From NCBI GenBank assembly GCA_013343275.1, contig CP046106.1:806001-870000 (forward strand): a stretch of DNA of 64,000 bases, in the 5' to 3' direction. This document shows positions 3,732 to 55,383 of the stretch, piece after piece. The translations under genes were made by a program, and so were the position numbers. Source of the DNA: Candidatus Nanohaloarchaea archaeon (GTDB lineage Archaea; Nanohalarchaeota; Nanosalinia; Nanosalinales; Nanosalinaceae). How positions within the stretch are numbered: position 1 is the stretch's first letter; every line of letters starts with the position of its first letter. The notes under the pieces are model-generated. The model was given only the letters and a program-made list of their open reading frames with translations. It searched no databases and was not told where the DNA came from.

Positions 3732-4241
3732 ATGGCAGAGACATCAAATTACAAAGTACCTTTCAGAAGGAGAAGAGAACAGAAAACAGACTATGAACAA
3801 CGGCTGAAGCTGGTTAAATCTGGAAAACCACGAGCAGTAGTAAGAACAAGCAACCAGCACACAAGATCACACCTTGCACACTACAAGCGAGAAGGTGACG
3901 TAAACGAGGCCCAGACACTCAGCAAAGAACTAGAAGAATACGGCTGGGAACATAACACAGGCAACCTGCCAGCAGCATACCTGACAGGATACCTGACAGC
4001 CAAAAAAGCAGACTCAGAAGAAGCAATCCTCGACATAGGTCTCAGGGAACAGAAAACAGGAGGCCGAATCTTCGCAGCAGTAAAAGGAATGAGAGACGCA
4101 GGCCTTGAAGTACCTGCAGGAGAAGAAGTATTCCCTGCTGAAGGAAGAATTAGAGGAGAACACATCGAAGAAATGAAAGAAGACTCAAACATTACAGAAA
4201 ACTTTGAAGAAGTCAAAGAAAACATCGAAGGTGAATTTTAA
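3732..4241 (+). CDS. rpl18: 50S ribosomal protein uL18
   Basis: uL18, 169 residues from the chosen ATG, binds 5S rRNA. The N-terminus NYKVPFRRRREQKTDYEQRLKLV and the later YLTGYLTAKKA and LDIGLREQKTGGRIFAAVKG are diagnostic. A GTG at 3723 overlapping the eL19 stop would add three residues. The ATG at 3732 is preferred because GGAGTGAG lies 6 bp before it and family members begin near this point. The C-terminus is rich in Glu. Confidence 0.95.
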   Translation: MAETSNYKVPFRRRREQKTDYEQRLKLVKSGKPRAVVRTSNQHTRSHLAHYKREGDVNEAQTLSKELEEYGWEHNTGNLPAAYLTGYLTAKKADSEEAILDIGLREQKTGGRIFAAVKGMRDAGLEVPAGEEVFPAEGRIRGEHIEEMKEDSNITENFEEVKENIEGEF

Positions 4242-4912
4242 TGGCAGAACAGGAAATAGAAGAAGAAATCTGGACTCCAAAGACAAAACTCGGTAGAGCA
4301 GTGGCCAACGGCCAGATCACAACTATTGAACAGGCTCTAGACCATGAAAGACCGATCATGGAGCCAGAGATCGTCGACCAGCTGACAGATCTGGATGAAG
4401 AAGTAATGCTTATCGGAGGAACTCCGGGAAAGGGAGGCGGAAAAAGAAGAACAGTCTCCAAGAGAACAGCAAGAATGCACAAGTCAGGCGCAAGGTACAG
4501 TTCCAACGCAATGACAGTACTAGGAAACCGTAACGGAGTAATAGGACTAGGCGTAGGAGAATCAGACGATACACGAGCGGCAATCGACGACGCAAATAGA
4601 AACGCCAAGCTTAACCTGATCAAAGTACCTAGAGGAAACGGATCATGGGAGGACAAAGGAGATCACAAGGCCTCCATCCCATTCCAGGTAGAAGGAAAGT
4701 CAGGATCTGTAACAGTAGAGCTTAAACCTGCTCCAAGAGGAACAGGCCTAGTCGCATCCGACGACGTCAAGAAAGTAATGGAGCTCGCAGGAATCGACAA
4801 CATCTGGGTCAAATCCAGAGGAACAACAAGAACACGAGAGAACCTGATCAGAGCAACATTCAACGCTCTGGAGAAACTCTCCGAATATCAGCATGATGGT
4901 GACAACCAATGA
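4241..4912 (+). CDS. rps5: 30S ribosomal protein uS5
   Basis: uS5, 223 residues, part of the decoding-accuracy centre at the mRNA entry. It has a double-stranded-RNA-binding-like N-domain (GGKRRTVSKRTARMHKSGARYSS, then NGVIGLGVGESDDTRAAIDDANRNAKLNL) and a C-domain with VELKPAPRGTGLVASDDVKKVMELAGI. The start overlaps the uL18 stop and has GGTGA 8 bp upstream. The archaeal-specific N-terminal helix (EQEIEEEIWTPKTKLGRAV) is present. Confidence 0.96.
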   Translation: MAEQEIEEEIWTPKTKLGRAVANGQITTIEQALDHERPIMEPEIVDQLTDLDEEVMLIGGTPGKGGGKRRTVSKRTARMHKSGARYSSNAMTVLGNRNGVIGLGVGESDDTRAAIDDANRNAKLNLIKVPRGNGSWEDKGDHKASIPFQVEGKSGSVTVELKPAPRGTGLVASDDVKKVMELAGIDNIWVKSRGTTRTRENLIRATFNALEKLSEYQHDGDNQ

Positions 4913-4962
4913 TGAAAATCGCAGATTTTCGTGATGCAGAAAACACAGGTGTTTTCGAATGA
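4909..4962 (+). CDS. 17-codon mini-gene linking uS5 and uL30
   Basis: The frame opens with an ATG overlapping the uS5 stop (ATGA) and closes with a TGA overlapping the uL30 start (ATGA), giving MMKIADFRDAENTGVFE. GGTGA lies 6-10 bp upstream. The uL30 ATG has no separate Shine-Dalgarno site. The peptide resembles the one before uS14 (ending GVFE) and the one before Top6A (starting MKIKDF). The DNA forms two hairpins, so coding and structural readings coexist. Confidence 0.45.
   Translation: MMKIADFRDAENTGVFE
4914..4961 (+). repeat. Dual-hairpin element, copy B
   Basis: GAAAATC (4914-4920) and GATTTTC (4924-4930) form the first hairpin with loop GCA. The spacer GTGATGCA follows, then GAAAACAC (4939-4946) and GTGTTTTC (4949-4956) form the second with a 2-nt spacer. 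GAATG, containing the uL30 start, follows immediately. Organisation matches copies A and D, and the first stem differs in sequence from copy A but remains perfectly paired. Confidence 0.75.
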
Positions 4963-5306
4963 TTGCAGCAATCAGAGTAAGAGGAGACGTCGACGCAAGC
5001 GACAAAGCAAGTGCAACACTTCAGAACATGAACCTTGAAAGGAGAAATCAGTGCGTAGTATACGAGGACACTGATTCGATTCGAGGAATGCTGAACAAGG
5101 CCAAAGACTACATCACATATGGCCAGGTATCTGATGAAGCGCTTGAACTGCTTGAAGAAAGGAAAGGATCAGAAATTGAATCTGGCGATGTAATTAATCT
5201 AACACCTCCAAGCAGAGGTTATAAGGATACGAAGAGAAATGTAAATCAGGGCGGAAGCCTTGGTGAAAGAGAAAACCTAGATAACCTGATCGAGAAAATG
5301 GTGTAA
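4959..5306 (+). CDS. rpl30: 50S ribosomal protein uL30 (short form)
   Basis: uL30, 115 residues. The N-terminal strand IAAIRVRGDVDASDKASATLQNMNLERRNQCVVYEDT is the archaeal L30 pattern, and the C-terminal LTPPSRGYKDTKRNVNQGGSLGERENLDNLIEKMV matches the archaeal-specific C-terminal domain. Typical archaeal L30 is about 150 residues, so the middle is shortened. The start is the ATG directly following hairpin element B. Confidence 0.92.
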   Translation: MIAAIRVRGDVDASDKASATLQNMNLERRNQCVVYEDTDSIRGMLNKAKDYITYGQVSDEALELLEERKGSEIESGDVINLTPPSRGYKDTKRNVNQGGSLGERENLDNLIEKMV

Positions 5307-55313: not shown

Positions 55314-55331
55314 TCTTGTTACGCTCTTGAC

Positions 55332-55383
55332 GAAACTTCAAGAGAAGTTTCTGTGAACGCACAAAATCTCTGATTTTGGAGTG
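55332..55383 (+). repeat. Dual-hairpin element, copy D, downstream of tRNA-Arg
   Basis: GAAACTTC (55332-55339) and GAAGTTTC (55344-55351) form hairpin 1 with loop AAGA. The spacer TGTGAACGCA follows, then CAAAATC (55362-55368) and GATTTTG (55372-55378) form hairpin 2 with loop TCT, then GAGTG. Layout, spacer and terminal GARTG match copies A and B, but no reading frame spans the element and no plus-strand gene begins at its GTG. This favours a structural or mobile element. Confidence 0.7.

Follow-up and report, generated by a model that had tools for sequence, protein, structure and literature searches.

Positions 4909-4962 of the 64,000-nucleotide stretch analysed here (the window; contig CP046106.1 of a Candidatus Nanohaloarchaea archaeon, positions 806,001 to 870,000 of the forward strand) lie in a ribosomal-protein operon, where they fill exactly the gap between the genes for uS5 and uL30. 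We estimate a probability of about three in four that this sequence is an element resembling a miniature inverted-repeat transposable element (MITE), which inserted at the uS5-uL30 junction with duplication of AATGAT and now acts as a natural bicistronic leader, acquired by transposition, through which translation of the operon is maintained. Comparison of its copies revealed a family of such elements, gain or loss between close relatives and flanking repeats. Furthermore, it revealed non-random stop-start coupling of a short frame to the downstream gene, non-random placement of Shine-Dalgarno (SD) motifs, and a coupling that appears to outlive the decay of the hairpins. Judged from these sequences, the best reading is that selection keeps a relay of translational termination and reinitiation, not the encoded peptide and probably not the hairpins.

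The element reads ATGATGAAAATCGCAGATTTTCGTGATGCAGAAAACACAGGTGTTTTCGAATGA on the forward strand and contains two perfect hairpins. Hairpin 1 (GAAAATC-GCA-GATTTTC, 4914-4930) has arms of 7 bp at 4914-4920 and 4924-4930 around a 3-nt loop, and hairpin 2 (GAAAACAC-AG-GTGTTTTC, 4939-4956) has arms of 8 bp at 4939-4946 and 4949-4956 around a 2-nt loop. They are separated by the spacer GTGATGCA (4931-4938); the usual spacer in the element family is TG-6N-CA. A mini-open reading frame (mini-ORF) of 17 codons, MMKIADFRDAENTGVFE plus stop, spans the whole element on the same strand (4909-4962). Its ATG at 4909 overlaps the stop codon of the upstream uS5 gene (4241-4912, plus strand, stop at 4910-4912) in the ATGA at 4909-4912, and its TGA, ending at 4962, overlaps the ATG of the downstream uL30 gene (4959-5306, plus strand, Pfam PF00327) in a second ATGA at 4959-4962. 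An SD-like AGGTG (4947-4951) that extends from the loop of hairpin 2 into its 3' arm is placed to serve the uL30 start, and an SD-like GGTGA in the uS5 tail (4898-4902), which we read as the ancestral SD, now lies upstream of the mini-ORF start. The direct repeat AATGAT occurs at the left flank (4908-4913), where it holds the putatively duplicated start codon, and at the right flank (4958-4963), where it holds the start codon of uL30. At a bare uS5-uL30 junction (locus L056) the corresponding AATGATTGCAGCA is present once, whereas in the window AATGAT stands on each side of the insert.

The initial annotation had described this stretch as the second copy of a dual-hairpin mini-gene, which is confirmed by the two perfect hairpins and the open 17-codon frame. 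Its statement that both peptides end in TGVFE needs correction, since the actual ends are NTGVFE in the uL30 copy and TRGVFE in the first copy, so that GVFE plus stop is common to them. The window contains three copies of the element in total, all on the plus strand. The first lies at the uL5-uS14 junction (about 1727-1785), and its mini-ORF ends with GTGA over the GTG start of uS14. The third, missed in the initial annotation, is located 3' of a tRNA-Arg gene (55327-55383); its hairpin 2 lacks an SD, and it has neither a through-frame nor a gene start after it. Paired adjacent perfect hairpins occurred at these 3 places in the window compared to 0 of 10 Markov shuffles, and the folding z-scores of the three copies were -4.5, -1.7 and -3.0.

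With regard to the mechanism, insertion of the element at the start codon of a gene would duplicate this start codon. The upstream duplicate, together with the ancestral SD, would open a mini-ORF through the element, which would stop at the second, original start codon, for which hairpin 2 would provide a new SD. The downstream duplicate would be the real gene start, to which few ribosomes would gain access other than by termination-reinitiation. At the junction considered here, ribosomes that have completed uS5 would begin anew on the mini-ORF, open up both hairpins and terminate at the ATGA before reinitiating on uL30; the translation of the mini-ORF is thereby predicted from its sequence context.

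Among the 50 copies at gene starts, 45 carry a frame that runs from a start codon at the left end of the element to a stop offset by +4, 0, +1 or -2 from the start of the gene, i.e. with stop and start overlapping or adjacent as in cistrons coupled by termination-reinitiation. The arrangements comprise ATGA or GTGA (+4), TAATG (+1) and TGA directly followed by ATG, and the mini-genes are 16-20 codons long. Of the five other gene-start copies, two are arrays of four hairpins and have longer frames, and the frame before eS24 of SG9 has 35 codons, its end still lying directly at the start. The mini-frame is open across the element in all 44 testable gene-start copies, compared to 45 of 88 cases for the other two frames of these copies; where no gene follows, the value is 60 of 96. 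When the element was swapped for one from a non-gene site, a test restricted to ATG starts, on average 7.4 copies were coupled (maximum 15 in 200 trials) versus 43 observed. SD matches of at least 5 nt were found in hairpin 2 of 44 of the 50 gene-start copies versus 3 of the 32 others, and in hairpin 1 of none of the 50 gene-start copies. The mini-ORF start is itself preceded by an SD of 4 nt or more in 39 of 44 copies, against a rate of 36% after shuffling, as expected if this start is the duplicated original one. The host genes behind the element encode ribosomal proteins, RNA polymerase, exosome, aIF2 gamma and GatB. The mini-gene claim of the initial annotation appears to be right in the sense of a coupling device. 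Four-hairpin arrays were seen at L109 (G001), L084 (G009) and L055/L178 (G003), each with one open frame of approximately 35 codons that runs right up to the start of the following gene, the first two frames having been read by eye; the array peptides are alike before different genes (..RNLKGFGLAKTHGGEF, ..RNPQGFGLAKNPLGDF and ..RNLQGFGLAETHKGEF, each followed by a stop).

Similar arrangements exist in engineered and natural systems. In synthetic bicistronic design (BCD) leaders, a second SD is embedded, and stop and start overlap. As in the element, a short leader cistron is coupled to the target, and translation of the leader drives the target (PMC5995908); BCDs are engineered, whereas the element appears to be natural, mobile and repeatedly acquired. 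Termination-reinitiation at ATGA overlaps has been demonstrated in the haloarchaeon Haloferax volcanii, in which 9 gene pairs were tested (Huber et al., 2019, PMC6728339), and SD motifs within the upstream frame often aid reinitiation (PMC6728339). The element shares with this coupling the same ATGA/TAATG stop-start overlaps and the SD inside the upstream frame, but the upstream partner in Haloferax volcanii is an ordinary gene and here a mini-ORF of 16-20 codons apparently made by insertion. Another group, the Rickettsia palindromic elements (RPE), comprises short palindromes that sit inside expressed genes without disturbing the reading frame (PMC10969869). RPEs are approximately 150 bp long and fused in frame into proteins, whereas the element forms a separate mini-cistron; in 45 of 50 gene-start copies its frame terminates where the next gene begins, unlike an RPE-type fusion into the host protein.

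Decayed copies indicate which feature of the element is retained. At the uS3 site, intact copies occur in six genomes. G003, G004 and G010 have no hairpins left there, yet mini-frames (MNEIKSSRRNSQMNHIAKGEVQ, MSETKRISKRESDL and MRKSEVVSVIHTQGENQ, each followed by a stop) still end at the uS3 start. Likewise, two genomes (G015 and G017) have lost the hairpins before eS24 and kept the coupled mini-frame. From their site, position and residual sequence similarity, we infer that these five decayed copies descend from the element and are not unrelated short frames. Their peptides are unrelated and differ in length, hence the retained feature would be the stop-start relay. Moreover, since five descendants without hairpins keep the coupled frame, host selection on structure is not needed.

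The unrelated peptides of the decayed copies also bear on the idea that the mini-ORFs are conserved leader-peptide genes with the encoded peptide as the selected product, which we regard as highly improbable. It would agree with the frame being open in every testable gene-start copy, and the initial annotation had suggested looking for a dN/dS-like signal of the mini-frame. Such a signal was found in so far as the ratio of non-synonymous to synonymous differences (pN/pS) was below 1 at three sites (0.37, 0.58 and 0.87), but these values are weak, come from 17-19 codons and are not independent of the constraint on the stems. Furthermore, the hairpin is read in different frames between copies (KIADFR, ENQRFS and RNSENF), and little is common to the peptides beyond the sequence dictated by the hairpins. 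Peptide conservation was rejected as the cause because of the weak pN/pS and the different reading frames.

The element consists of a hairpin, a spacer of approximately 10 nt and a second hairpin, with a total length of roughly 45-50 nt and stems of the type GAAAN..NTTTC. A first covariance model, built from four copies, gave strong matches in the own genome and many relatives, and a best E of 0.27 in 12 archaea outside the order. With a second model, built from 87 copies, we found approximately 25 distinct sites in the own 916-kb Nanohaloarchaeota genome and matches at E<=0.001 in 16 of 28 Nanohaloarchaeota genomes, with up to 31 matches in SG9 (both strands counted), i.e. short, multicopy and dispersed palindromic DNA as in MITEs. 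The distribution is patchy, even inside one family of genomes; a uS5 search gave named relatives that belong to the Nanohaloarchaea, among them Nanosalina, Nanosalinarum and SG9. Viral contigs, searched with a single exact pattern taken from the most frequent hairpin 2, gave no match to it, and titles and abstracts of the open literature on Nanohaloarchaea palindromes and DPANN MITEs, with subscription papers outside this scope, held nothing recognisable as the element.

The self-complementarity kept despite sequence change, on which the initial annotation had built its case, extends to the whole family, and the compensatory substitutions that should accompany it were found. Stems broken in most copies, which would have refuted the initial annotation, were not observed; 92.2% of the stem cells in the 87-copy alignment are standard pairs. 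Changes on both sides occur in 16 of the 17 stem pairs, and 257 double-change cells compare to 74.7 in column shuffles, a signal that was lost when one side was slid; as the alignment was fitted to the structure, these counts are biased towards it. Strong pairing with compensatory change is also what a structured cis-regulatory RNA would display, for example an autoregulatory leader of ribosomal proteins, in which the hairpins bind a ribosomal protein or sense the translation state and the structure is selected. The concentration of copies at ribosomal and core information-processing genes and the overlap of the SD by hairpin 2 would fit as well. Nevertheless, we consider this explanation unlikely, because copies also exist without a following gene start (3' of tRNA-Arg and in arrays beside tRNA genes), the occupied junctions differ between species, the five decayed copies retain the coupled frame without hairpins, and gathering-level Rfam matches in the window were confined to tRNAs, with none for the element. 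The stem pairing in intact copies may reflect the biology of the element or palindrome correction instead of host selection. The initial annotation had left the choice between selection on structure and a shared hairpin-bearing element; the latter is well supported as the better alternative by the dispersed family, the empty sites in a congener and the flanking repeats. In addition, a reading of the TGA..GCA and GARTG motifs as box C/D small RNA or kink-turn was rejected, as there were no consistent D or D' boxes and no Rfam match.

Evidence for gain or loss comes from the congener G001, whose operon proteins are mostly 81-99% identical (lowest 73%). It is bare at uL2, uL24, uL5-uS14 and uS5-uL30, that is at four of the five ribosomal sites occupied in the own genome, and shares the uS3 site alone; empty sites in close relatives are a feature of MITEs. 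The occupied junctions vary by species, with uL24, uL5 and uS14 in SG9, uS8 and uS5 in NHA29, and uL14 and uL30 in NHA25, while six other named relatives have no copy in the stretch examined. Flanking direct repeats of at least 8 nt were observed for 10 of 82 copies compared to 0.93 with randomly re-paired flanks, and repeats of at least 11 nt for 3 copies compared to 0.02. Such repeats include GGACAATGA at eS4-uL5 of SG9 and AGATGAGTA upstream of uS19; a tRNA gene has GGCGGGGT at its 5' end. The start codon usually lies inside the flanking repeat of gene-start copies. Hence, direct repeats of the kind left by target-site duplication are present, though many copies have no clear repeat.

Prokaryotic MITEs and small palindromic repeats (ERIC, RUP, archaeal MITEs) are, like the element, short, non-coding-sized, palindromic, multicopy and dispersed, and they show short flanking direct repeats and presence/absence between relatives (PMC10969869). 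Unlike MITEs, the element consists of two separate hairpins instead of one terminal inverted repeat, no parent transposon was identified, and its gene-start copies have an internal SD and a coupled mini-ORF. Its ends read GAAA..TTTC since each end is a hairpin, and no long terminal inverted repeat is common to both ends. Overall, its sequences behave like those of a mobile palindromic element, MITE-like in kind, and mobility is their probable cause.

Without transposition, the flanking repeats could result from local duplication of a translation-initiation region followed by template-switch palindrome formation in place. The repeat indeed covers SD and start in L061 (GGTGATTTCAAATGA, 15 nt) and L012 (GATTTCGAGTGAT, 13 nt), and quasi-palindrome correction could yield paired stem changes without selection. 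However, such a process would not give a hairpin type, spacer pattern and length common to unrelated genes, tRNA flanks and species, which makes it a distinctly improbable origin.

Several observations weigh against a transposed element. The flanking repeats are weak or decayed in most copies, and that of the uS5-uL30 copy has 6 nt and is not significant on its own, this length being reached by chance in 6.2 of 82 re-paired flanks. The uL5-uS14 and uL24 sites are occupied in SG9 and empty in the congener, a pattern that additionally requires losses, independent gains or recombination. Moreover, Y1_Tnp (PF01797) had no match in the own genome, OrfB_IS605 (PF01385) is absent from it, and DDE_Tnp_1 (PF01609) was not found above the cut-off in 28 genomes of the phylum; none of these three families, the only ones looked for, provided a mobilising transposase, and units bounded by matching hairpins lay outside the search. 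Mobilisation of the IS200/IS605 or REP/RAYT type was rejected, as the own genome has no Y1 (HUH) transposase. Which way each gain or loss went, and how the element would transpose, are inferred.

In a compact operon, an insertion duplicating the overlap is one of few that spare both neighbours, which may explain why surviving copies are found at start codons. A more far-reaching and tentative idea, to which we give somewhat less than even odds, is that the mobile element has a translational survival strategy. With a hairpin that bears an SD and a body readable in at least two frames, it would not kill the operon when it lands on the start codon of an essential gene, but install a working two-step relay from mini-cistron to gene; the host would later keep the relay and discard the hairpins. 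If true, the transposed leader would represent a route by which a compact genome tolerates insertions between overlapping essential genes. It would be the counterpart in nature of engineered bicistronic leaders and would provide new short translated frames, as well as spacing within ribosomal-protein operons. Annotators would also gain a specific pattern to look for, as such mini-ORFs fall under the length limits of gene callers.

Some arrangements were observed beside or within tRNA genes. At two loci of the own genome, L019 1501-1610 (approximately 542.4 kb) and L020 1446-1548 (approximately 600.5 kb), four or five short hairpins stand in regular spacing beside tRNA genes. At L020, GGCGGGGT represents the first 8 nt of the tRNA and is repeated on both sides of the dual hairpin, and at L019 the GGACGCC of the tRNA 3' end is repeated. 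In L089, L100 and L106 (G003, G009), dual hairpins lie within the T-arm sequence of tRNA 3' portions (GTTCAAATCC-element-ATCCGGGTCCTGCCA). A tRNA-intron reading of these T-arm copies was rejected for L089 and L106, where the element lies in an incomplete 3' piece of a tRNA and an intact tRNA is adjacent; at L100 it may interrupt the only copy. At L036 (G023) and L114 (G010), the intron mode of ARAGORN places the dual hairpin in the predicted intron of tRNA-Arg(gcg), which could be an intron-borne copy.

Finally, two observations concern ribosomal-protein genes and their surroundings. Residues ~235-353 of the own uS3 form a C-terminal tail that is common to uS3, eS24 and many other Nanohaloarchaeota proteins, as seen from dozens of secondary matches in the uS3 search. 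The 150-nt spacer between uL15 and SecY of SG9 (L060) contains several more short hairpins and a tail ..TCTTGCGTATCAATAGAGCATAACC upstream of SecY, in an arrangement unlike the dual hairpin.
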